NCBI GenBank assembly: GCA_025055755.1
Contig: JANWWF010000014.1
Span: 1-39,458 of the forward strand
Source: Candidatus Kapaibacterium sp.
GTDB taxonomy: Bacteria; Bacteroidota; Ignavibacteria; Kapaibacteriales; NICIL-2
Direction: 5' to 3'
Length of the DNA stretch: 39,458 bases
The notes beneath the pieces are model-generated. The model searched no databases, was not told where the DNA came from, and saw only the letters and a list, made by a program, of their open reading frames with translations. Below, piece by piece: positions 11,045 to 24,465 of this stretch (the stretch's first letter is position 1; each line of letters opens with the position of its first letter). Made by a program: the position numbers and the translations under genes.

Positions 11045-14000
11045 TTGAATCAAAAAAATTCCGTAGCTTCGTCGTGGACACTAACCTTGATTGTGAATGC
11101 CATGAAAGCGGGTTTAGTGTGGATGATCGTTGTCGGTACGATGCTTACCGCGTTGCATGTTCGGGGGCAAGTGTGGGAAGAGGTGACACTACCGGGACAG
11201 TTTGCTCAAGGGTACTATTTGGACGTGTTTTTTCTCCCCTCAAATCCCCAGTATGGCTGGGCATGCGGATTTAGTGGCTTTGTAGTGCGCACTACGAATG
11301 GCGGGCAGACGTGGCAGGGCTCTGTGGTCCCTTACAATGGGCGTGCAGGAGGACATCTCGAATCCATACACTTTGTTGATGCATTCAACGGATATACCTC
11401 GGGACCATGCGGTGTTTTCCGCACAACCGACGGCGGTGCAACGTGGACCGACATTACTCCTCCATTCCCCAGCGAAGGACCGTGGGGATGCTACTTTCTT
11501 TCGGCAACAACGGGTGTGGTGCTCGGCGGCGGCTGCGCCGGACCGCAGAACTTTTTCCGCACCACCAACGGGGGAGCAAGCTGGACGCTCTTTCAGGCAA
11601 ATCTTAACGCCAGTGGGCTGACTGATGCCATCCTCTATCCGAACGGAAGCGGTTTTGCGGTTAGCAGCGGCATTCTGTGGCAGACAAGCGATGGAGGAGC
11701 AACGTGGAGCATCCTTACCTCTACTGGTCCTAACTATTGGAACGAAGAGCTTACTCGCAGTGGCAATTCATTTCTGATTCCGTGGGCAGGGTCCAACTGT
11801 AGCGGCCAGGGTAGCGGCGGGGGTGGACGCTTCTCCACAGACGGTGGACAGACATGGCGTTCGTATTCGACAGGTGTGCCCATGTTTGGCGCATTTCTCC
11901 ATGATAGCCAACGCGGGTGGATATGTGGCTACGCCCGGCAAGTTTGGTACACCACCGATGCAGGGCAAAGCTGGCAGTACCGAGGATGCGGGACCCGTGG
12001 CGATCTGGACGATCTCTGGATGATTGACGACACAACGGGGTTTGTCGTCGGGCAAGGTATCTATCGCTATGCCCGTGCACAGCGAACCGCAAGTAAAACC
12101 CTTGTTGATTTTGGGGCGCACTGCCCGCCTGTGCTACGACTGGACACGCTCTACTTACGGAATCGCTCCTGGAATGCAACAAGTGTGCGCCTCTCCCTTA
12201 GTGGACAGCATGCATCGGCGTTTGCAGTAGTACAGCCAGCGTCGGCGCAAACTATCGGTGTGCCTTCGTGCGATTCGCTGATGGTGGTTGTTCGCTATCA
12301 GCCTTCCACTGACGGCGTCCATACAGCAGCCCTTAGTGCGGAGTTTTCTTCCGGAGAAACACTGGTAGTGCAATTGCGCGGAGAACGCATTGGAAACGCT
12401 GTGACCGTACAGGATACACTTGTGGAGGTAACAGGTGTTCCTGCTGGCGAGGCAGTTACGCTGTCGCTGGGTCTGCAGAATCGCTCCACTCTTTCAGGGC
12501 AAGTGGTCAGCGTTACGCGTCTTAGTGGCGCAACATTTATGGTGGATGGCGCTCTTCCTTTGGCGATTCCGCCAGGAGGAAATACTCTGCGCTTCCGCTT
12601 TGTTCCACCCGATACAGGTTGGTTCGTCTCGCGCGTGCGAATTCGAACCGAACCCTGCAGCCGGGACACAGTTGTTACCCTTCGCGTCTATGCACGCTCG
12701 CCGATTATTAGCGCAACGGCTTTGACGTTCAATTCCCCTTGTGGAGAAGGAGTGCAAGACTCTGTGCTCATCACAAATACTGGCAATAGCGATCTGGTTA
12801 TTAGTGCCCTCTGGATAGAGCCACTGGGGGTGCCGATTCAGGTCATTGGCTCCAGTCGTGGCTCTCTTCCAATTGTAACACCGCCTTCAGAGAGCACATG
12901 GGTGCATTTGCGGTATGAAGGATACGGCAGCGGAACTGCATCGCTGGTGCTGGAGCATAATGACCAAACGCTTGTCCGGCCGATTACTCGGCCGTTGCGT
13001 GTGCCACTTTCGTATGGATCGGCACCGCCAAGCTGGACCAGCTCGCCTCGAGTACTGGACTTCGGAACGCTCTGTGTCGGTGAGTCTCACATTCTTTTTG
13101 CAGAGATTGTTAACACCGGTACTGTACCTCTTGCGCTGACCGCAAGAGCTGATGCTCCCTTTGCGATTGCAGCGAATAGGCAGTTTTCCCTTGCTCCTCG
13201 AACGCGACAGCAGATAGGGGTTTCGTTTACACCAGTGCAAGCGGGGAGATGGAGCAGCGCTCTTGTGCTTGCTATCGAACCATGTAGTCGTGCTGATACC
13301 ATTTTGCTCCAAGGACATGCTGAAACTACCCTGCTTGCGGTCGAGCCGCAGCCAGTTGTGGTTCGCGTGCAGGTAGGGGAAAGCCGGCGGATACCTGTTG
13401 TTGTGCGGTCAACAGGAAGTGCCTACGCACGGATTTCGCAGATTGAGCTTACTCCAGTGCTTACCCAGTGGCGTCTGCGAACACCGCCGCTCCCATTGAC
13501 GCTGCAGCCGGGCAGAGGTGATACCATATGGCTCGATGTTGAGGCAGGAGATACCCCTACCCAGCTAACAGGCAGGCTCTGCGTGGATGCTGACACGCTG
13601 TGTCCTGTGCAGGCATGCGTGGAAGTGCGCTGTATAGTAGAGCCACGGGAGTTTCACGATCTGCAGCTTTCCCCCTTGCAGCACGTGTTTGCATTTCAGC
13701 GATGTACCCCTCGGCGCGAGCGCAGAACGGTAACGATAGCAAACAACGGCACATTTGTCGAAACAGTGACGGCAGCACGAATTGAACCTGCTGGTGCTCC
13801 TTTTGCCATTGTGAGCCCAGTGCTTCCGTTCTCTATTCGTCCGGGTGAACAGGTTGAAATTGGCATTGAGTATGCTCCCGTCGAGGAAGGAATCCACCAA
13901 GCGACTCTTGTACTTGAAAGTCCAGCAGCATGGAGTACACCCCGACAAGTAGAATTGGTCGGGAGTTTTGGGCGTGTGATCACCCAGTGCTCACCTGAGC

Positions 14001-15349
14001 GGACATCCTTTGGGACGTTGGCGACATGTTCGGCTGTGCAAGAACTGCCGGTGCGCTTTTTCAGTCGGGGTATGCTCAGCGATACGCTTGTTCTCGTTGC
14101 AGTACCTGAAAGACCAGGGTGGTCAGTCCCAGCGTCGGCACAGGTAGTGGCCATTGCCCCCAACGACTCTGCAGAAGTTGTCCTCCGCTTCGATCCATCG
14201 GCGGGAGAAGTTGGCGGTGCGTGGGTTGATCAGTTTGTGTGGGAAAGTCGGGTCTGTCCCTTGCAGCTTCGCGTCGAAGTAGCGTACCAAGTTGTACGTC
14301 CGCAGCTGAGCTATTCTCCTGCGGAAATCGACTTGGGTCGCCTGATGCAGCACAGCACCGTTCGAGCACAGGTAGAAATTGGTGCGCTCCCTCCTGTTGA
14401 GGAGTTCACGGTGGTCAGTTGGGAACTCACAACAATAGCGGGTGCTGCTGATTTGCAGCTGGATGCTCCTCTCCCCTTTGCCACCAAAGTACCACAGCGT
14501 GCATTGATTGCATATACAGTCACGCCACGGCAGGTGGGTCCATACCGGGCGCAAGTACGCTTTGCTGTAGTATCCCGGCTTGGATCGGCCCAGTGCCATG
14601 ATACCATCGTCGTTATGCTCACCGGAAACGTCGAGGAAGAGCATTACTGGGGTCGGCTTTCTATGCACCGCCATACAGGACTTGTTGGAGATACCATTCG
14701 TGTGCCGGTGGTTCTTTCAACGCGCGATAGCAGTGCGGATGCTTTATGGCGAGCAATGCCTGCAGCGATCGGTTTTGTTGTGCGGTATGATGCATTTGTG
14801 CTTGATGCTGTAGGAGCAGTAGCGGGCTCTGGTGGAGTCGAATTGCCAACAGTACGAGAATTAGGCCTGCTTCAGGTACGGGTACCTCGAGAAAGCCGAG
14901 TGGGTATGCTTGGCAGTAGTGATACGCTGGCAACACTTGTATTTGTTGGCTTGCAATCGCCGCCCTTGCGCTCAGAGCTTCACTTTACTCGGTCGTGGGC
15001 AGAGACCCTTAAGCCATATACCATTGAGCATGACGATGGCGAAGTAGTCCTCGATGCCTGTGTGCCGTGGGCACGGTTTGTTCTATCTTCAGAAGTGCAC
15101 TTGCGTGTTGTCCCCAATCCTGCCGATGATGCCCATCCACCTACGCTTGAAGTAGTAGCAGATAGTACTACGACACTTGAGTGCGCCCTTTACCGAAATG
15201 ATGGGCGGCAGGTGGCTCAGTGGACCTTGCACGTGGAAAAGGGACATTATTGGCATCTCCTTCCGTGCGAAGGGAGTGGGGTGTACTTTTTGCGTGTTTC
15301 TCAACGCAATGGAGTGTCTCGATGGGTGTTCCCACTGGTAGTGCGATAA
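11045..15349 (+). CDS. giant secreted BNR / HYDIN-like / cohesin-like protein with T9SS tail
   Basis: A 1,434-residue exported protein of unknown role, probably on the cell surface. After a signal segment (up to about residue 41, ...LHVRG/QVW) come six BNR/Asp-box repeats of the form RTTDGGATW at about 82, 126, 172, 213, 264 and 302, which build a sortilin-like beta propeller. From about 350 to 1200 there are repeated immunoglobulin-like HYDIN/ASPM-type units (for example LDFGTLCVGE near 672, with the NTG turn). Around 1210-1330 is a cohesin-like domain (GDTIRVPVVL... FVVRYDAFVLDAVGA). The last 80 residues (VVPNPADD... GVYFLRVSQ) form a type A T9SS sorting domain. The TTG start is backed by a strong ribosome site; the ATG at 11102 (MKAGLVWMIVVG) is the alternative. 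A strong terminator follows at 15418, so it is probably a single-gene unit. Confidence 0.85.
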   Translation: MNQKNSVASSWTLTLIVNAMKAGLVWMIVVGTMLTALHVRGQVWEEVTLPGQFAQGYYLDVFFLPSNPQYGWACGFSGFVVRTTNGGQTWQGSVVPYNGRAGGHLESIHFVDAFNGYTSGPCGVFRTTDGGATWTDITPPFPSEGPWGCYFLSATTGVVLGGGCAGPQNFFRTTNGGASWTLFQANLNASGLTDAILYPNGSGFAVSSGILWQTSDGGATWSILTSTGPNYWNEELTRSGNSFLIPWAGSNCSGQGSGGGGRFSTDGGQTWRSYSTGVPMFGAFLHDSQRGWICGYARQVWYTTDAGQSWQYRGCGTRGDLDDLWMIDDTTGFVVGQGIYRYARAQRTASKTLVDFGAHCPPVLRLDTLYLRNRSWNATSVRLSLSGQHASAFAVVQPASAQTIGVPSCDSLMVVVRYQPSTDGVHTAALSAEFSSGETLVVQLRGERIGNAVTVQDTLVEVTGVPAGEAVTLSLGLQNRSTLSGQVVSVTRLSGATFMVDGALPLAIPPGGNTLRFRFVPPDTGWFVSRVRIRTEPCSRDTVVTLRVYARSPIISATALTFNSPCGEGVQDSVLITNTGNSDLVISALWIEPLGVPIQVIGSSRGSLPIVTPPSESTWVHLRYEGYGSGTASLVLEHNDQTLVRPITRPLRVPLSYGSAPPSWTSSPRVLDFGTLCVGESHILFAEIVNTGTVPLALTARADAPFAIAANRQFSLAPRTRQQIGVSFTPVQAGRWSSALVLAIEPCSRADTILLQGHAETTLLAVEPQPVVVRVQVGESRRIPVVVRSTGSAYARISQIELTPVLTQWRLRTPPLPLTLQPGRGDTIWLDVEAGDTPTQLTGRLCVDADTLCPVQACVEVRCIVEPREFHDLQLSPLQHVFAFQRCTPRRERRTVTIANNGTFVETVTAARIEPAGAPFAIVSPVLPFSIRPGEQVEIGIEYAPVEEGIHQATLVLESPAAWSTPRQVELVGSFGRVITQCSPERTSFGTLATCSAVQELPVRFFSRGMLSDTLVLVAVPERPGWSVPASAQVVAIAPNDSAEVVLRFDPSAGEVGGAWVDQFVWESRVCPLQLRVEVAYQVVRPQLSYSPAEIDLGRLMQHSTVRAQVEIGALPPVEEFTVVSWELTTIAGAADLQLDAPLPFATKVPQRALIAYTVTPRQVGPYRAQVRFAVVSRLGSAQCHDTIVVMLTGNVEEEHYWGRLSMHRHTGLVGDTIRVPVVLSTRDSSADALWRAMPAAIGFVVRYDAFVLDAVGAVAGSGGVELPTVRELGLLQVRVPRESRVGMLGSSDTLATLVFVGLQSPPLRSELHFTRSWAETLKPYTIEHDDGEVVLDACVPWARFVLSSEVHLRVVPNPADDAHPPTLEVVADSTTTLECALYRNDGRQVAQWTLHVEKGHYWHLLPCEGSGVYFLRVSQRNGVSRWVFPLVVR

Positions 15350-15698: not shown

Positions 15699-16169
15699 AT
15701 GGACCGGATCGAAAAAGTGATTATCGCAAGTGCGGTAGTGTTGCTCCTTGTTTTTTTTGGTGCGATTGTCATTGCCGCAACAGGATACGGCGTTGATGTG
15801 CCCACCTGTGTCACCGATCGTAAGCCGTTCACTGAAGGACGAGCACCGTTCAAGACATCTGATCAGCCTCTTCGTTATGAGGCACACACAGTTGCCCGTA
15901 TGTGGAATTTCGATCCTCCCGAAATAACCATTCCACCAGGTGCGGAGCTCGATTTATACTTGAGTGCTGCTGATGTGGTGCACGGCTACTTTGTTGAGGG
16001 TACAAACATCAATTTGATGGCAGTGCCTGGTGCAGTGACATACCAGCGCGTCAAGTTCGATCGGGAAGGAACCTACCGTATTCTATGCCATGAGTACTGT
16101 GGCACGGCGCATCACTTGATGGCAGGTACGATTGTTGTCTCACAAGCAGCTATGGAGGAACAGCAATGA
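15699..16169 (+). CDS. cbaB: cytochrome c oxidase subunit II, ba3 (B) type
   Basis: Carries the dinuclear CuA centre that accepts electrons from cytochrome c. At 156 residues it has one N-terminal transmembrane helix (about 8-28) and a periplasmic cupredoxin domain. CuA ligands are visible: H95 (DVVHGYF) and the CHEYCGTAHHLM motif with C130, C134, H138 and M141. The single helix and short length are as in Thermus ba3 subunit II. The ATG at 15699 has a GGAGG site five bases upstream. Its stop overlaps the start of subunit I by 4 bases (ATGA at 16166), which indicates translational coupling and balanced production. Confidence 0.93.
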   Translation: MDRIEKVIIASAVVLLLVFFGAIVIAATGYGVDVPTCVTDRKPFTEGRAPFKTSDQPLRYEAHTVARMWNFDPPEITIPPGAELDLYLSAADVVHGYFVEGTNINLMAVPGAVTYQRVKFDREGTYRILCHEYCGTAHHLMAGTIVVSQAAMEEQQ

Positions 16170-17890
16170 ACGGTGTTCTACGTTTACCGGTTGAGCCAGG
16201 AGCACGGCGACTAATCCTTCTGGAAATTGCGCTGCCCGTAGTGCTTATGGTGCTGGGCATCTATGCAGGATTATTGCAAGTGCTCTTCCGGGCAGGAGTC
16301 ATACAAGCGGCAGAGTTCGGCGGCTGGGAATACTACCAAGCCCTAACACTGCATGGAGTGGTCAATGCAGTGGTTTTCACAACATTTTTTGCTGTAGCAT
16401 TCGGCAATGCTCTTGTTCCTTACGCACTCGGTATGACGCTGCCGCTACGGTGGGCATGGGTATCGGGCATTACCATGATTGTTGGGACGCTCATGGCAGC
16501 ATGGGCGATCTTAGCTGGGAAAGCCTCGGTGCTCTACACGTTCTATCCCCCATTGATGGCACATCCGTTGTTTTACATCGGAGCGGCACTGTTGATTGTT
16601 GGATCGTGGATTGCGTTCTTCAACTGGATCCCTCTCTACGTGCGATGGCGAAGAGAACATCCAGGGGAAAAGACGCCATTAGCGGTGGTTGGCATGTTTG
16701 CAACGTTTATTGTTTGGTTCATCGCAACCATTGCTGTCGCCATTGAAGTTCTGGTGCTGTTGATTCCATGGTCGCTTGGATGGACGCAAGAAGTCAATGT
16801 GCCACTGGCTCGAATGTTGTTTTGGTTTTTCGGGCATCCTTTAGTGTACTTTTGGCTTCTTCCGGCCTACACGATGTATTACACGATGCTTCCGCGACTG
16901 GCAGGAGGGAAGCTCTATTCCGATAAGGTCGCACGATTGGTATTCATGCTCCTGATTTTGTTTTCCATTCCAGTTGGTGCACATCACCAGTACACGGAGC
17001 CGGTCGTTAGTAGCGGATCGAAATTGCTTCATGCGTTCTTAACCTTTGCGGTTGCTCTTCCCAGCCTCATCACGGCTTTTACCATCGCAGCATCGCTGGA
17101 GTATGGGGCACGGCAGCGGGGCGCACAGGGTCTGTTCGATTGGATTGTCAAACAGCCATTTTTCTCCACCGACAACTGGATGTTCGCGTACCTCATTGCA
17201 GGGCTTATCATTTTCATCATGGGTGGGATTTCGGGTATCGTCAATGCTTCCTACAACATGAACCTGGTTGTGCATAACACCAGCTGGATACCAGGACACT
17301 TCCACTTAACCGTAGCTGGGCCGGTCTTATTGGCATTCCTTGGGATGAGTTTGCATTTACTTTCAACGTACAGTGGCAAGGAGCTACGCCTGAAGCGGCT
17401 GGCAGTTGCAGTGCCATACTTGTGGTTGGTTGGAGTGTTTGTCTTCTCTTGGGGCATGATGCGCGGTGGTTTGCACGGTGAACCCCGCCGCTCGAATCTT
17501 GGGTTGTCATACCTAAACCCGGACAGTCCTTTCTATCATCCCGAGTGGAAGCTCTATGTCACCGTTACAATGATTGGTGGCATTATCATGACAATTGCAA
17601 TGCTTGCATACTTCATGGTCTTCTTTACCACGGCATTGAGTAAACGGTCGCAGGAAGCTCAGGTGACATTTCCGCTATCGGAAGCTTACCATGATGAACC
17701 TGCGGGAGCGTTGCTTAATTTTCGGCCATGGCTTATTGCAGCTCTGGTTCTCATTGTTGTTGCATATACGCCGATGGTACGAGACGTTATGCGGGGAACG
17801 TTCAGCAGCGCTCCTGGCTACGAGCCACACAATCCTGCCCCCGTTAATCAGTCTCTCGAGGAAGAAATCGAGCAATCAGCCACCCCGTGA
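16166..17890 (+). CDS. cbaA: cytochrome c oxidase subunit I, ba3 (B) type
   Basis: Reduces O2 to water at a heme a3-CuB site and pumps protons. It has 574 residues and many transmembrane helices. Metal ligands: H63 (LHGVVN) and H380 for the low-spin heme, H378 for heme a3, and H224, H273 and H274 for CuB, with the cross-linkable tyrosine Y228 in HPLVY. HPLVYFWLLPAY and PGHFHLTVAG are nearly the same as in Thermus ba3, and the HPEV glutamate of A-type enzymes is replaced by leucine, marking a B-type enzyme with only a K-channel analogue. Such oxidases have high O2 affinity. It overlaps Sco by 4 bases downstream. Confidence 0.95.
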   Translation: MNGVLRLPVEPGARRLILLEIALPVVLMVLGIYAGLLQVLFRAGVIQAAEFGGWEYYQALTLHGVVNAVVFTTFFAVAFGNALVPYALGMTLPLRWAWVSGITMIVGTLMAAWAILAGKASVLYTFYPPLMAHPLFYIGAALLIVGSWIAFFNWIPLYVRWRREHPGEKTPLAVVGMFATFIVWFIATIAVAIEVLVLLIPWSLGWTQEVNVPLARMLFWFFGHPLVYFWLLPAYTMYYTMLPRLAGGKLYSDKVARLVFMLLILFSIPVGAHHQYTEPVVSSGSKLLHAFLTFAVALPSLITAFTIAASLEYGARQRGAQGLFDWIVKQPFFSTDNWMFAYLIAGLIIFIMGGISGIVNASYNMNLVVHNTSWIPGHFHLTVAGPVLLAFLGMSLHLLSTYSGKELRLKRLAVAVPYLWLVGVFVFSWGMMRGGLHGEPRRSNLGLSYLNPDSPFYHPEWKLYVTVTMIGGIIMTIAMLAYFMVFFTTALSKRSQEAQVTFPLSEAYHDEPAGALLNFRPWLIAALVLIVVAYTPMVRDVMRGTFSSAPGYEPHNPAPVNQSLEEEIEQSATP

Positions 17891-18468
17891 AACAGCGAGC
17901 AGTTTTTTGGACAGTGCTCGTTTCTGCAGTGCTGCTGCTTGGCGGTTGTGATGCTGCCCATCCGCCGAGCAGCAGCCGCCTGCAGGCTACCGATGGACGC
18001 ACGTATAACTTTCCCGCGGACCTGCGAGGACGCATCGTCATTGTAAGCTTTATCTACACTCACTGCCCAGATATTTGCCGGATGACCATTGGGCATTTGC
18101 TCGATCTATGGGAGCGGGTTGGGGGGGATACGAATGTAGTGTTTGCCACCGTTACACTTGATCCAGCCCGAGATACAGTCGCTGCTTTACGGCAATACGC
18201 AGAGGTATGGGGGATCCCGTCAGTACGCTGGCTCCTGCTGACAGGAACTATTGCTGAGGTTGAACGCGTTCATAAAGCATTTGGAATAGTAGCGCGGAAA
18301 AGCTATACCGAGCGTTTGCCTACGGGGGAGAGTGTGTACTTCATTGACCATACAGATGCAGTCTTCTTGCTGGATCGCAATGGCATTGTCCGTGATCGAC
18401 GGGAAGGAAGTTCGCTGGATGTTAGAAAATATGCCCAAATGGTGCAACAATACATTCGTGGCCAATGA
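17887..18468 (+). CDS. SCO1/SenC copper chaperone (lipoprotein)
   Basis: Delivers or reduces copper and thiols for assembly of the oxidase CuA site. It has a lipoprotein signal with lipobox LLGGC (C21), then a thioredoxin-like fold with the copper site CPDIC (C60, C64) in TFxxTxCPxxC context (SFIYTHCPDIC) and the conserved H155 (YFIDHTDAVFLLD). Length 193 is normal. It starts with GTG at 17887, overlapping the stop of subunit I by 4 bases (GTGA), and its own stop overlaps the next copper chaperone by 4 bases. This tight coupling ties it to the ba3 enzyme, although it may serve the A-type oxidase too. Confidence 0.92.
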   Translation: MKQRAVFWTVLVSAVLLLGGCDAAHPPSSSRLQATDGRTYNFPADLRGRIVIVSFIYTHCPDICRMTIGHLLDLWERVGGDTNVVFATVTLDPARDTVAALRQYAEVWGIPSVRWLLLTGTIAEVERVHKAFGIVARKSYTERLPTGESVYFIDHTDAVFLLDRNGIVRDRREGSSLDVRKYAQMVQQYIRGQ

Positions 18469-18884
18469 AGCTGATTATTGTCGCGATAATTACTTTCGTT
18501 GGAGTACATGCTTCGGCGCAGGTTGCTTCCCTCCAGCTGAAGAATGGATGGATGTATAGTGCCGATAGCGGTATGATTACAGGTGCCTTTCTGACCATCC
18601 AGAACCGCTCACCTCAACCGGACACGATAATTGCAGCAATTGCAGAGTGTGCTGAACATACGGAAATTCATACGACCGTCCGCAATGAAGATGGGACGAT
18701 GGGAATGCGCCCCATTCCAGAATTGATTGTTCCATCGCGGGGGAGCCTTGTTCTGAAGCCGCGGAGTCTCCACATCATGCTCTATCATCTCCGGAAAACG
18801 CTCCGACCAGGCGATCGGTGCATCTTATTTCTGCGTAGTAAACGGCACGGCACACTGAAAACAGAACTTATAGTGCGCCGGTAA
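18465..18884 (+). CDS. PCu(A)C-type periplasmic copper chaperone
   Basis: Binds Cu(I) in the periplasm and passes it to CuA or to Sco. It has 139 residues with a signal peptide (1-18, HASAQ). The ligand pattern H69-x11-M81-x21-H103-x-M105 agrees with the known H(M)x10Mx21HxM motif of the family (DUF461), with a one-residue longer first spacing (M79 is also near). It overlaps sco by 4 bases (ATGA at 18465), completing a subunit II - subunit I - Sco - PCu(A)C series, a full assembly set for the CuA centre. Confidence 0.88.
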   Translation: MKLIIVAIITFVGVHASAQVASLQLKNGWMYSADSGMITGAFLTIQNRSPQPDTIIAAIAECAEHTEIHTTVRNEDGTMGMRPIPELIVPSRGSLVLKPRSLHIMLYHLRKTLRPGDRCILFLRSKRHGTLKTELIVRR

Positions 18885-19444: not shown

Positions 19445-19530
19445 CCGCTACTAACATATGATATGCTACAGTTTCAACGAGACAAAAGCGCAGCAGAAAT
19501 AGTTCTATCATCAAGATGCATGGAGAAGCT

Positions 19531-20343
19531 ATGAACTCTTCAACTCGACAGGCGTTGTGGTATGCACTATTTATTCTGATTTTTACCGCAATCGCTACAT
19601 ACACAGTTGCGAACAAGACCTGGTGGTTCCCACCTCTTGCATCGGTACAGGGTGCAGAGATCGATCGCTTGTTCATGATTACTCTTGTTATCACGGGAAT
19701 AGTGTTCATTGCTGTCCATATCGTATTGGCTTACTTTATCTGGCGATATCGCTCACGTCCTGATGCGAAAGCAGCATACATCACTCACAACACGCGTTTC
19801 GAGGTCTCTGCTGCAGCGACGGTTGCATTAGCATTGGTGATTTTGGTAGGGGGTGGTACGACGTTATGGACAAAAATTCAAAGCCCTCCTCCTGAAGATG
19901 CTTTCACAGTAGAAGTGTGGGCAGAACAGTTCCGTTGGACATTCCACTACCCTGGAGCAGATGGGCGAATGGGGAATGTAGATGTGCGTTTCATCAGTGA
20001 TGAAAACCCTTACGGTCTTGATCCAAACGATCCGTATGCGAAGGATGACATTTTCACTACTGAAATGCATGTGCCGTATGGGGCACCAATAGCAGTGATC
20101 CTTCGCTCAAAAGATGTACTCCACAGCTTCTTTCTACCACACTTTCGCATGAAAATGGATGTTGTCCCTGGAATGAAAACGCGCATGTGGTTTACACCGA
20201 CGCAAGCAGGAACGTTTGAAATTCCCTGCACAGAACTCTGTGGTGTTGGTCACTATATCATGCGCGGAGTGCTGACAGTTGAATCCCCCGAACAATTCAA
20301 TGAATGGATACGCCAACAAACACCTGTAGCAATGTCTCAGTAA
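19531..20343 (+). CDS. ctaC: cytochrome c oxidase subunit II, A type
   Basis: The CuA subunit of the A-type oxidase, 270 residues. Two transmembrane helices (about 8-28 and 50-70, plus a further hydrophobic stretch near 95-110) precede the cupredoxin domain, which starts at FRWTFHYPG. CuA ligands: the histidine in DVLHSFFLP and the CTELCGVGHYIM motif. There is no cytochrome c domain at the C-terminus, so it is not a fused caa3-type subunit; the free cytochrome c at 18913 may replace it. An acidic loop (DENPYGLDPNDPYAKDD) is typical of this branch. The ATG at 19531 has GGAG at 19522 and was preferred over the ATG at 19516. Confidence 0.93.
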   Translation: MNSSTRQALWYALFILIFTAIATYTVANKTWWFPPLASVQGAEIDRLFMITLVITGIVFIAVHIVLAYFIWRYRSRPDAKAAYITHNTRFEVSAAATVALALVILVGGGTTLWTKIQSPPPEDAFTVEVWAEQFRWTFHYPGADGRMGNVDVRFISDENPYGLDPNDPYAKDDIFTTEMHVPYGAPIAVILRSKDVLHSFFLPHFRMKMDVVPGMKTRMWFTPTQAGTFEIPCTELCGVGHYIMRGVLTVESPEQFNEWIRQQTPVAMSQ

Positions 20344-20360: not shown

Positions 20361-22235
20361 ATGGAAACAACATCAATTGCCCACGCAGAAGCGCCCGTTG
20401 AAGTACATCACCATGAGCCGCAGAGCTTCTGGACCAAGTATGTGTTTAGCCAGGATCACAAGGTTATCGCCATGCAGTATATGATTACTGCACTGGTGAT
20501 GGGCTTTATCGGCATGGTGATGTCGTGGATTTTCCGCATCCAGCTTGCATGGCCAGAGCATAATCTGCCGTTTCTCCGCTTTTTGATGCCGACAAACATG
20601 GAAAGCGGCACACTCCAGACGCCCGGCTACTACATGCTCGTGACCATGCACGGGACGATTATGATCTTTTTTCTCCTCACAGCGATTCTGACGGGAGGCT
20701 TTGGGAATTTTCTCATCCCTCTCCAGGTGGGCGCGCGGGATATGGCATTCCCCTTCCTAAACATGCTGAGCTATTGGTTCTATTTCCTTTCGTGCGTAGT
20801 TATAACTGCATCATTGTTTGTTACAACGGGTGCTGCGTCTGCAGGATGGACCTCGTATCCTCCATTGAGTGCGATAGCGAAGGCAACTCCAGGTTCTGGT
20901 TTAGGACAAGACCTCTGGCTTATTTCGATTGCACTGTTCATTGTTGCCTCGACGATGGGTAGTTTGAACTACGTAACCACTGCGCTCAACATGCGTGCGA
21001 AAGGCATGACGCTGATGCGTATGCCACTGACGGTATGGGGTATCATCGTTGCAGCAATGTTGGGACTATTTGCATTCCCTGCGCTCTTTGCTGGTGCTGT
21101 GCTTCTCCTTCTTGACCGACATTTAGGAACAAGCTTTTTCCTTCCGTACTTGGTAGTTGGAGGAGAGCATATTGTTCGGAATGATGGGAGTCCACTTCTG
21201 TGGCAGCACTTATTCTGGTTTTTGGGACATCCGGAGGTTTACATCTTGATTCTCCCTGCCATGGGGATTACTTCCGAAATTCTCTCCAACGGTGCTCGAA
21301 AGCCGATATTTGGCTACAAAGTAATGGTTGGCTCGATTGCAGCAATCGGGTTTTTGAGCTTTATCGTATGGGGACATCACATGTTCGTTAGTGGCATGAA
21401 TCCATGGCTTGGATTTGCATTCGTTATTACCACCCTCATTATCGCAATTCCCTCAGCCATTAAGACTTTCAACTGGCTTGGGACGTTGTGGAAAGGGAAC
21501 ATCCGCTTTACCACCCCCATGCTGTTTGCTATTGGATTCATCTCAACATTCGTCACGGGGGGATTGACAGGACTATTCCTGGGGAATTCTGCTCTTGATA
21601 TTCCACTGCACGACACCTACTTTGTCGTTGCACACTTCCATGTAGTGATGGGCTTGAGCTCGGTGTTCGGTATCTTCGGCGGTATCTACTACTGGTTCCC
21701 CAAGATGACGGGCAGAATGATGAATGAACTGTGGGGGAAAGTGCACTTCTGGCTGACGTTTGTAGGGTCCTACGGCGTGTTCTGGACGATGCACTACCTT
21801 GGCTTTATGGGTATGCCACGCCGTTACTACAGCTACGAAAGCTATCAGTTCTTGCCGCCAGATATGCATGTTCTGCAGGTGATTATCACCGTGTCCGCTC
21901 TTATTGTGGGTGCAGCTCAGTTCATCTTTATCGTGAATTTCATTGGGTCATGGCTGCGCGGCAAGAAAGCCCCTGATAATCCATGGCAAGCAACGACACT
22001 CGAATGGCAGGCACCAACACCACCTCCTCATGGCAACTGGGGTCCAACACTGCCGGTTGTTCACCGATGGCCATATGACTATAGTGTGCCTGGAGCCTCG
22101 GCTGACTTTGTACCCCAGACAGTTCCGGTGGAAGTAGAGCCCACCGGAGAACATCACCGCGTTGCGGTAGCGGTCAACGGTCATGCGCATGGTCATCCTC
22201 ACACCAATGGAAGTGGCAATGGTCACCATAGCTGA
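20361..22235 (+). CDS. ctaD: cytochrome c oxidase subunit I, A type
   Basis: Catalytic subunit, 624 residues, about 12 transmembrane helices. Ligands: H97 (MHGTIMIFF) and H427 for heme a, H425 for heme a3, H290, H339 and H340 for CuB, with Y294 of HPEVY as the cross-linked tyrosine. E292 in HPEVY and the aspartate in VGARDMAFP mark a D-channel, and IPSAIKTFNW carries the K-channel lysine, so this is an A1-type proton pump. The C-terminal tail, after the last helix (about residue 540 on), ends in a histidine-rich stretch with many HxH pairs (VNGHAHGHPHTNGSGNGHHS), an unusual cytoplasmic tail that could bind metal. Its end overlaps the next gene by 17 bases. Confidence 0.96.
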   Translation: METTSIAHAEAPVEVHHHEPQSFWTKYVFSQDHKVIAMQYMITALVMGFIGMVMSWIFRIQLAWPEHNLPFLRFLMPTNMESGTLQTPGYYMLVTMHGTIMIFFLLTAILTGGFGNFLIPLQVGARDMAFPFLNMLSYWFYFLSCVVITASLFVTTGAASAGWTSYPPLSAIAKATPGSGLGQDLWLISIALFIVASTMGSLNYVTTALNMRAKGMTLMRMPLTVWGIIVAAMLGLFAFPALFAGAVLLLLDRHLGTSFFLPYLVVGGEHIVRNDGSPLLWQHLFWFLGHPEVYILILPAMGITSEILSNGARKPIFGYKVMVGSIAAIGFLSFIVWGHHMFVSGMNPWLGFAFVITTLIIAIPSAIKTFNWLGTLWKGNIRFTTPMLFAIGFISTFVTGGLTGLFLGNSALDIPLHDTYFVVAHFHVVMGLSSVFGIFGGIYYWFPKMTGRMMNELWGKVHFWLTFVGSYGVFWTMHYLGFMGMPRRYYSYESYQFLPPDMHVLQVIITVSALIVGAAQFIFIVNFIGSWLRGKKAPDNPWQATTLEWQAPTPPPHGNWGPTLPVVHRWPYDYSVPGASADFVPQTVPVEVEPTGEHHRVAVAVNGHAHGHPHTNGSGNGHHS

Positions 22236-22857
22236 AAAATCCGCTGAGCGACGTGCTATCGTTCCGCCACCTCCTCGTCGAGATGATGGATGGTGGAACG
22301 GCAGCGACGATCCCCAGTCGCTGGCGGTGCCAAGCTGGCAACTGGGGACGTGGATTGGATTGGGCACTCTCACAGTCCTGTTTGCTGCTCTTTCGAGCGC
22401 GTATATCGTGCGCATCGGTGGCGAACGTCTCGCCTTTGCATTACCTCAAACGGTTTGGCTAAGCACCGCCTTGCTGATAGCTAATAGTGTGGCATTAGTA
22501 GTGGCACGACGTCTTTTGGAACGGCGGCAACGCCGTTTTATACGGTGGCTGTTTGTCTCCGCCGGCATTGGCATCGCATTCCTTGCTGCCCAGGCAATAA
22601 CATGGCAAATTATGGCAGGGCAGGGATTGTTCTTGACAACAAATCCACACAGCAGCTTTTTCTATGTGCTTACGGTCGTGCATGGTGCCCATGTTCTTGG
22701 GGGACTTGTGGCACTGGGTCGGTGCATGTATCATGTGCGCCAGCGCAGCCCACTTTCTCGCATGCGGCGAGCGCTTGGCATGACGGCGACATATTGGCAC
22801 TTTGTTGATGCTGTGTGGCTATGGATTGTCGCGCTCTTTTTGTGGACTTCTTTGTAA
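22219..22857 (+). CDS. heme-copper oxidase subunit III (first of two)
   Basis: A 212-residue membrane protein with about five helices. The family ending TYWHFVDAVWLWIVALFLW and the helix VLTVVHGAHVLGGLVAL carry the conserved HG-x-HV and YWHFVD motifs. A proline-rich charged N-terminus (VPPPPRRDD) precedes the first helix. The start was set at ATG 22219, overlapping subunit I by 17 bases; an ATG at 22207 is possible. It is more divergent than the second copy at 22885, and together they may replace a single seven-helix subunit III or form two different versions. Confidence 0.85.
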   Translation: MVTIAEKSAERRAIVPPPPRRDDGWWNGSDDPQSLAVPSWQLGTWIGLGTLTVLFAALSSAYIVRIGGERLAFALPQTVWLSTALLIANSVALVVARRLLERRQRRFIRWLFVSAGIGIAFLAAQAITWQIMAGQGLFLTTNPHSSFFYVLTVVHGAHVLGGLVALGRCMYHVRQRSPLSRMRRALGMTATYWHFVDAVWLWIVALFLWTSL

Positions 22858-22884: not shown

Positions 22885-23538
22885 ATGGCAACTGCAGAAT
22901 TATCGCTTCACCAAGAATTCCAAGAATACACGCTGCGCTCGCCCTTTAGAGCAAGCTGGCAGAAGGTGATGATGTGGGTGTTCATCGTTGTGGACGCCCT
23001 TACATTTGGCAGCTTACTTGTTAGCTACGGTTTTACGCGGGTGAGCCTCGGCGAGTGGGCAAACCCTGCAGAAGTGTTTGCGCTCCACATCGGCGGCAAG
23101 GAAATTCCCTTGCTGCTTATTGCTATCATGACGTTTATTCTGGTAAGCTCCAGCGGCACTATGGCGTTGGCGGTAGCAAATGCGTATGAGCGGAAGAAAA
23201 AAGAGACAGTACTTTTCCTGACGCTCACGATGCTGCTGGGGCTAACTTTTGTCGGATGTCAGGTGTATGAATGGACGCACCTCATCACGCATGGTACTCG
23301 TCCCTGGTGGAATCCATACGGACCACCCCAATTTGGCGCATACTTTTTCACGCTGACAGGGTTCCACGGTCTGCATGTGCTTAGTGGGGTCATTTATCTG
23401 GCAATCGTAGCACGGATGGTCGCGAATGGAACACTGGATCGCCGTGGTTCATACCAGCTTGTTGAAATCGCAGGGCTCTACTGGCACTTTGTGGACTTGA
23501 TCTGGGTGTTTATCTTTACCATGTTTTACTTGTTCTGA
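22885..23538 (+). CDS. ctaE: cytochrome c oxidase subunit III (second copy)
   Basis: A 217-residue five-helix subunit III that supports the proton-uptake side and stability of subunit I. The first helix begins WQKVMMWVFIVVDALTFGSL, the fourth has GFHGLHVLSGVIYL and the last is YWHFVDLIWVFIF. The family's conserved acidic and histidine residues are present (YEWTHL). It is the better family match of the two tandem copies. A gap of 27 bases separates it from the first, and only 7 bases lead to subunit IV. Confidence 0.9.
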   Translation: MATAELSLHQEFQEYTLRSPFRASWQKVMMWVFIVVDALTFGSLLVSYGFTRVSLGEWANPAEVFALHIGGKEIPLLLIAIMTFILVSSSGTMALAVANAYERKKKETVLFLTLTMLLGLTFVGCQVYEWTHLITHGTRPWWNPYGPPQFGAYFFTLTGFHGLHVLSGVIYLAIVARMVANGTLDRRGSYQLVEIAGLYWHFVDLIWVFIFTMFYLF

Positions 23539-23545
23539 GGTGACA

Positions 23546-23854
23546 ATGGCAGAAGGCACACACGTTCCGATTCGCAAGTATTTGACAGTATGGTTTTGGC
23601 TTTTTATTCTGAGTGCGCTGGCATACTTTATTGACGTTGTTCATGTGCCATCACCATGGAAGGCAATTCTCCTGGTGATGGTTGCACTCATGAAAGCAGG
23701 GATGATTATGGCGGTGTTCATGCACCTCGGCTATGAGCGGCTAAGTTTGATATATGCTGTTGTTGCACCTTTGATTTTCCTGGTCGTCATGACCATTGCT
23801 TTCTTGCCAGAAGGAACAGCGGTATTAGGTAGTCATGCAATAGCTGCACCATAA
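23546..23854 (+). CDS. ctaF: cytochrome c oxidase subunit IV
   Basis: A small membrane subunit of 102 residues with three hydrophobic segments, of the prokaryotic subunit IV family (PF03626 type). The helix AILLVMVALMKAGMIMAVFM with the following HLGYER is characteristic. The ATG at 23546 has a GAGGTG site that overlaps the stop of the preceding gene; a GTG at 23540 is less likely. Its stop shares one base with the start of the next gene (TAATG), a coupling that links the small CxxC protein to the oxidase. Confidence 0.88.
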   Translation: MAEGTHVPIRKYLTVWFWLFILSALAYFIDVVHVPSPWKAILLVMVALMKAGMIMAVFMHLGYERLSLIYAVVAPLIFLVVMTIAFLPEGTAVLGSHAIAAP

Positions 23855-24096
23855 TGAAGTACCGGTGGATGAAAGTAGTTGTTGCGCTTTTGGCTTTTGC
23901 GCACACAGTGTGGGCGCAGTGCGCCATGTGTAAGTCAGCAGTAGAGACAACCGACAATGCTGGCTTTGTCACTGCGCTTCGCGATGGCATATACCTTATG
24001 CTGGTAACGCCGTATGCTATCGCTGCAGTAATTGCGGTAGCGGTGTATGTGCGCTGGCGAAAACGCCGACGTATTGTTGATCCCTCTTTGAACTAA
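23854..24096 (+). CDS. small CxxC single-pass membrane protein of oxidase loci
   Basis: An 80-residue protein of unknown function. It has a signal peptide ending VWA, so the mature protein begins QCAMCK, placing a CxxC with an embedded methionine at its very N-terminus in the periplasm. A single helix follows (about 45-65, YLMLVTPYAIAAVIAVAVYV) and a basic tail (RWRKRRR) faces the cytoplasm. Short proteins of this layout are common beside oxidase genes in Bacteroidota, from general memory. CxxC plus Met suggests binding of copper or heme-assembly thiols, an inference. It overlaps subunit IV by one base (TAATG) and is followed by the next gene with no gap. Confidence 0.75.
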   Translation: MKYRWMKVVVALLAFAHTVWAQCAMCKSAVETTDNAGFVTALRDGIYLMLVTPYAIAAVIAVAVYVRWRKRRRIVDPSLN

Positions 24097-24465
24097 ATGC
24101 CGCTTCCTCTTTCGCAAAGGGGGTACGTGTGCACCCTATTGATCGTTCTGCTGGGTGGAATTATCGGTTGCCGGACAGCACCGCCTCCCGTACCGGCAGA
24201 TGCAGTCGTTCTTAGTGGGCGTATCAATCCGATGATGGGACCAAGCGGAGCAGTGCTCTGCTGGGTGCTCGAATCGGGGAGTGACCTGCGATCGCTCAAA
24301 TACTACGTCCTCGTCGGGCGAGAAGAACTCATGGAGCGCCTGCGCCAAGAAGATGCAACGGTAACTTTGCGTGCGATTATTCGCAGCGATATATCCACTG
24401 ACTGCCCTGTTGGTACCGTTGCAGAAGTGTATGAAATTATCTCTTTGCGCACCCCAAAAGATTAG
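24097..24465 (+). CDS. small lipoprotein of unknown function
   Basis: A 122-residue product I do not recognise. The N-terminus is a lipoprotein signal with lipobox GIIGC (C25), followed by a proline-rich linker (TAPPPVPAD). The remainder looks beta-rich with two later cysteines (in VLCWVL and in TDCPVG), which might form a disulfide, and an EEL/EDA helix between. It starts right after the stop of the CxxC protein and its 3' end overlaps the next gene by 35 bases, so it is part of the same unit. Confidence 0.6.
   Translation: MPLPLSQRGYVCTLLIVLLGGIIGCRTAPPPVPADAVVLSGRINPMMGPSGAVLCWVLESGSDLRSLKYYVLVGREELMERLRQEDATVTLRAIIRSDISTDCPVGTVAEVYEIISLRTPKD

Follow-up and report, generated by a model that had tools for sequence, protein, structure and literature searches.

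What does a very small membrane protein do at the end of an operon for an A-type heme-copper oxidase? The question is raised by an open reading frame (ORF) in the window, the whole 39,458-nucleotide stretch of Candidatus Kapaibacterium DNA analyzed here, in which genes for COX2, COX1, two copies of COX3 and COX4 lie upstream of it (Table 1). The A-type oxidases of Bacteroidota go without Cox11 and Caa3_CtaG in nearly all genomes tested, and the family of this protein offers one defined, conserved and genetically testable candidate for copper loading. For one oxidase branch, we consider it a candidate for an assembly factor that is still missing and would handle copper or thiols, or else for a subunit that has been overlooked. 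The family would also correct the gene content assumed in the aa3/ACIII supercomplex field, where the protein is apparently unnamed.

Table 1. Features of the oxidase cluster, in window positions.
Feature	Coordinates	Strand	Basis
SCO1/SenC copper/thiol assembly factor, upstream in same cluster	17887..18468	+	PF02630 4.4e-26
PCuAC copper chaperone, upstream in same cluster	18465..18884	+	PF04314 3.5e-24
Oxidase subunit II, CuA loop CTELCGVGHYIM	19516..20343	+	PF00116, TIGR02866, motif
Oxidase subunit I, A1-type helix VI motif GHPEVY	20361..22235	+	PF00115 8.3e-153, motif
Oxidase subunit III, first copy; overlaps cox1 end, true start probably downstream of 22183	22183..22857	+	PF00510 3.7e-11
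Oxidase subunit III, second copy	22885..23538	+	PF00510 9.2e-18
Oxidase subunit IV (COX4_pro), one-base overlap with SP-CxxC-TM ORF	23540..23854	+	PF03626 8.6e-12
SP-CxxC-TM protein, 80 aa	23854..24096	+	ORF list, family searches
Signal peptide, predicted cleavage between VWA and Q (Bacteroidetes Q-rule)	23854..23916	+	Sequence, PMC5837995
Codons of invariant C-A-M-C pair (residues 23-26), mature N-terminus	23920..23931	+	Alignments, 75/75 members
TM helix, about residues 46-65, then basic WRKRRR tail	23989..24048	+	Hydropathy, charge; AlphaFold2 helix 36-75
Putative lipoprotein, 122 aa, begins at base after SP-CxxC-TM stop	24097..24465	+	ORF list

An undescribed family with an N-terminal cysteine pair

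The ORF was confirmed, and its complete product reads MKYRWMKVVVALLAFAHTVWAQCAMCKSAVETTDNAGFVTALRDGIYLMLVTPYAIAAVIAVAVYVRWRKRRRIVDPSLN. At its start (letters around 23845-23860: ...CCATAATGAAG) the cox4 stop codon TAA (23852-23854) gives its last A to the ATG, forming a TAATG junction. The one-base overlap reported in the sequence-only reading is therefore present; the accompanying phrase "fused by overlap" applies to translational overlap with cox4 and not to fusion in any further sense. The protein begins with a hydrophobic, signal-like stretch, MKYRWMKVVVALLAFAHTVWA, followed by QCAMCK with its CxxC, a single transmembrane (TM) helix and a basic tail. These are the features seen by the earlier reading in a small uncharacterized ORF, and the ones that characterize the family: signal peptide, mature N-terminus with a CxxC, single TM helix and basic tail. 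An AlphaFold2 model of the full protein contains helices at residues 2-32 and 36-75, with pLDDT above 90 in the second helix only.

Relatives within the genus are 69-77% identical, and the three comparisons made with the window protein each gave a dN of 0.03-0.10, with dS saturated, out of range or unreliable. Given this identity, the low dN and the presence of relatives in 112 of 395 sampled Bacteroidota genomes (profile search, E <2e-5), the ORF is more than a chance reading frame. Neither Pfam nor NCBIfam returned a significant match to the window protein, to 40 relatives scanned together or to divergent members, and no PDB chain significantly matched the protein or its family. The window protein did not match the thioredoxin-like domain of SCO1/SenC (PF02630) or COX4_pro (PF03626), both of which are encoded by separate genes, nor Caa3_CtaG (PF09678), the window protein having a single TM helix; Cox11 (PF04442) was matched neither by it nor by members of alignments A2 and A4. 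A description of the protein was not found in a literature search, and it belongs to an undescribed family. The putative lipoprotein encoded next has relatives in the genus only (L118, L121 and L122) and no Pfam or NCBIfam match.

Family profiles were built from seven sequences and then from 40 (A2); five partial, low-scoring matches (L110-L114) were left out. The CxxC occurs in all 75 members inspected and is invariant in alignments A2 and A5, with variable residues between the cysteines (CAMC, CPNC, CPAC, CPMC, CSIC, CPVC, CERC). The Met of CAMC is thus not conserved. The residue before the first Cys is Q in 57/75 members and A in 16/75, and in 55 of the 57 with Q the position preceding it is occupied by A, S or G, as in the Q-rule of Bacteroidetes signal peptidase (PMC5837995). 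We therefore read the Q as a predicted, ordinary product of this rule rather than part of a special motif. With the Q so explained and the Met not conserved, a functional role is left to the Cys pair alone. In Q-type and A-type members alike the mature protein has the pair at its very N-terminal end. Net charge averages -0.8 on the N-terminal side of the TM helix and +3.7 on the C-terminal side, which predicts an N-out, C-in topology. In non-Q members (ACPNC, ACPAC; L061, L064, L072 and similar) the first Cys would be +1 after cleavage; some of them end the signal in a lipobox-like LVAC, and a lipid-anchored form is possible.

Could the pair bind heme? A c-type cytochrome, with CXXCH and an axial ligand, was rejected, given that His directly follows the CxxC in 0/75 members and that a conserved His or Met ligand was not found in the family. 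A variant heme motif of the form CXXCK is known from NrfA, and K or R directly follows the CxxC in 60/75 members, as an unusual covalent heme c site would have it. However, the residue at this position varies (K, R, T, S, and F, Y or W in A4), and with the conserved ligand likewise missing we regard such a site as highly improbable.

Gene neighborhood and the COX1 branch

To place the family in its genomic context, 80 loci of 9-16 kb were retrieved, 75 of which contained true members; one lies at a contig edge (L090), leaving 74 assessable. In 66 of these the gene lies within an A-type oxidase operon or immediately adjoins one, and the linkage that the sequence-only reading had named as support is thus strong. 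Three gene orders are found repeatedly: that of the window, COX2-COX1-COX3-COX3-COX4-family(-SCO); CtaB-COX3-COX3-COX4-SCO-DUF420-family, seen for example in flavobacteria; and cytc-COX2-COX1-CtaA-CtaB-COX3-COX4-SCO-DUF420-family-ActABCDEF, in which alternative complex III (ACIII) follows the family gene. A scan of 84,980 GTDB species with the pattern AQCAMC[KR][SAG], which covers the AQCAMC[KR] subset of the family, gave at least 588 stretches, at least 544 of them relatives; among the matches listed, SCO and/or DUF420 adjoined in 80/80 kept loci, and COX3 or COX4 did too in 76/80.

Presence of the family follows the oxidase. COX3 was found in 112/112 family-positive genomes and the family in 0/106 genomes lacking COX3 (Fisher 6e-19, not corrected for kinship), and the absence expected where the oxidase is missing was thereby borne out. 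Many COX3-positive genomes have no family member by the 40-sequence profile. Among COX3 loci retrieved from genomes without a clear family match, thirteen oxidase operons contain a small signal-CxxC-TM gene (ACPVCFG, ACEVCWG, ACERCFG and similar), often between COX4 and COX2. The QCAMC and CPVCFG types are homologous by profile comparison (hhalign of A2 against A4: probability 95.6, E 1.2e-8) and occupy the same operon place. Operons of the YSHPAVY (A2) oxidase type without the family gene numbered 37; exclusivity to HPEVY (A1) oxidases was dropped as an explanation, since 18 family-bearing operons have a YSHPAVY COX1.

A COX1 tree of 104 proteins (IQ-TREE, C20 mixture, quick search) accounts for this distribution by one change: 65 proteins with and 39 without the family lie on either side of a branch with support 98, three Chitinophagaceae-like operons with the family gene elsewhere in the genome being counted as having it. 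A FastTree tree gave the same split except for one mislabelled divergent gene. A single change means that the co-occurrence statistics do not reflect many independent events. Functional weight comes instead from three other observations: no loss of the family is seen across the 65 COX1 tips of its branch, which span 22 family codes; it is retained in trans after unlinking; and in five dual-oxidase genomes (G064, G112, G088, G406, G338) the gene lies only beside the oxidase of its branch. A further genome, G007, has two oxidases of the family-bearing branch and one family copy for each (L103, L127), and a full-length copy was found in 0/30 genomes in which only the other branch was sampled. The family goes with one COX1 branch of A-type oxidases, and a dedicated link is well supported; the earlier link to A-type oxidases thus stands for this branch and not for all A-type oxidases. 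We regard it as a new oxidase-branch-specific accessory family.

One oxidase was left out of the 104-protein tree for its very long branch: an HPEVY enzyme (L256; G091 C1:184500-199500) with an aromatic CuA loop (CSEFCG), a heme c motif on COX2 and no family gene nearby.

Assembly factor or subunit

The same retention is what an intrinsic accessory subunit would show, one whose single TM helix packs against subunits I/III/IV and whose Cys pair is structural or stabilizing. Single-TM accessory subunits are common in bacterial oxidases, and the small single-TM gene is interleaved between subunit genes in several lineages (COX4-family-COX2), and G007 has a copy for each of its two oxidases. Such a subunit might have been missed, since the family has no match among PDB chains and the window COX1 finds its nearest PDB relatives among proteobacterial and actinobacterial enzymes. 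The strong retention of the gene and its place among subunit genes make this alternative a serious one. However, it would be unusual for a purely structural helix in an oxidizing compartment to carry an invariant CxxC on its flexible mature N-terminus, and eight members are unlinked from the oxidase operon, with COX3 present in their genomes; at the loci examined in such genomes (L254, L255, L257) the subunit genes have stayed together. Assembly genes, namely SCO, DUF420/CtaM, CtaA and CtaB, adjoin the family gene. Unlinking and assembly-gene neighbors are easier to explain for an assembly factor, which we favor over the intrinsic subunit, itself a somewhat unlikely reading.

We therefore lean, with a little better than even confidence, towards a lineage-specific, membrane-anchored Cys-pair assembly factor of one A-type oxidase branch, probably handling copper for CuB or CuA. 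After export and removal of the signal peptide, (pyroGlu-)Cys-x-x-Cys would form the start of the protein on the periplasmic side, and one TM helix with a positive cytoplasmic tail would anchor it. The Cys pair, perhaps in a dimer, might hold Cu(I) or exchange thiol/disulfide with the apo-oxidase, and the protein would work beside SCO, and usually DUF420/CtaM too, in delivering copper to the oxidase. CuB in subunit I would be the first candidate target, because the known CuB factors are missing, and the CuA site of subunit II the second. The assembly role, the copper/thiol chemistry and the preference for CuB over CuA are each what we infer.

Among 73 genomes, Cox11 was found in two and Caa3_CtaG in none. 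Both Cox11 genomes (G078, G129) have two A-type oxidases each: one has Cox11 between CtaB and COX3 and no family gene, and the other has the family gene. DUF420/CtaM is present in 47/73 genomes, including nearly all family-positive ones; it is missing from four of the latter and present in some whose sampled oxidase is without the family. The other Bacteroidota oxidase branch has neither Cox11, Caa3_CtaG nor the family protein, which argues against any universal requirement of a cysteine factor for CuB in the phylum. It is conceivable, if doubtful, that the family constitutes a third, unrelated kind of CuB metallochaperone, in which a minimal single-helix protein would stand in for Cox11 and Caa3_CtaG by its N-terminal CxxC across a large A-type branch.

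A different division of labor would be that of a thiol-disulfide factor only, in which the CxxC maintains the reduced state of SCO, or of the subunit II cysteines at CuA, and carries no copper. The motif itself and the frequent neighborhood of SCO suit this role, as does the CuA-loop residue between the Glu and the second Cys, which is aliphatic or Met in the family-bearing branch and aromatic in the other; the pattern hints at subunit II. However, the protein lacks a thioredoxin fold and is too small for an autonomous oxidoreductase, so that it would need a reducing partner. The CuA-loop pattern, moreover, is the same single phylogenetic change, and the Cox11-type oxidase of G078 and G129 breaks it, having an aliphatic loop without the family; we rejected it as independent evidence for CuA, and since it tracks the same branch it cannot separate CuA from CuB. 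A purely thiol-based role thus seems rather improbable.

Comparison of the favored assembly factor with named systems gives partial likenesses. Cox11 is a small single-helix protein with its Cys pair at the outer face (PMC9145763) and is likewise encoded with oxidase genes, which makes its replacement by the family plausible; it is absent or replaced where the family occurs. In contrast to the N-out family protein, which has a CxxC and no folded domain, Cox11 is anchored by its N-terminus and carries an Ig-like domain and a CXC motif (PMC9145763), and the Pfam scan gave no sequence relation between them. Caa3_CtaG is also an oxidase-operon gene product, proposed for CuB in Bacillus (PMC9145763), but is multi-TM and has no CxxC. 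CtaM/YozB (DUF420, PF04238), whose gene is often directly upstream of the family gene, is required for the aa3/caa3 oxidases of Bacillus and Staphylococcus (PMC4958251, PMC9145763) and has been proposed as a copper exporter (PMC13344008); unlike the family protein, it has 4-5 TM helices. CutF of Rhodobacter capsulatus is also small, exported and equipped with a Cys motif, and its gene accompanies that of its cuproenzyme (PMC8456105), but its motif is CXXXC, it is proline-rich and it serves a multicopper oxidase; we set it apart by description, not sequence. SCO1/SenC and PCuAC resemble the family as periplasm-facing copper/thiol factors of the same cluster, and SCO uses a Cys pair, but both have folded thioredoxin-like or cupredoxin-like domains and are encoded separately in the window.

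Occurrence outside Bacteroidota and other features of the window

In a Pseudomonadota sample the family was found in 0/149 genomes besides one Rhodobacter-titled MAG contig, and Cox11 in 58/150. The contig has the Bacteroidota-type gene order of oxidase operon and family, and looks like misbinning. On plasmids, the family was not found. A Bacteroidota-type oxidase operon is found on contigs (L176, L194) of two MAGs, one titled Rhodobacter and the other Bdellovibrio sp. ZAP7; the "Bdellovibrio" MAG group was discarded as a separate sample, shared coordinates indicating that it is the same as the Bacteroidota sample.

The window encodes a second heme-copper oxidase at 15699-17890, with a 156-aa COX2-like protein (CuA loop CHEYCGTAHHLM) and a B-type-like COX1 carrying GHPLVY. 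SCO1, PCuAC and a cytochrome c lie directly downstream, and the two oxidases may share them. The C-terminus of the A-type COX1 (22150-22235) is a His-rich tail, NGHAHGHPHTNGSGNGHHS, conserved within the genus and not typical of the family-bearing branch (7/64 vs 3/41). Elsewhere in the same genome lies an ACIII operon (ActA-F; L289, G000 contig C59, 133500-149500) with cytochrome c, CtaB, SCO and DUF420; relatives of the same order have ACIII, oxidase and SP-CxxC-TM gene in one operon. At 11045-15349 the window encodes a very large secreted repeat protein whose end, by eye, resembles a type IX secretion sorting domain.
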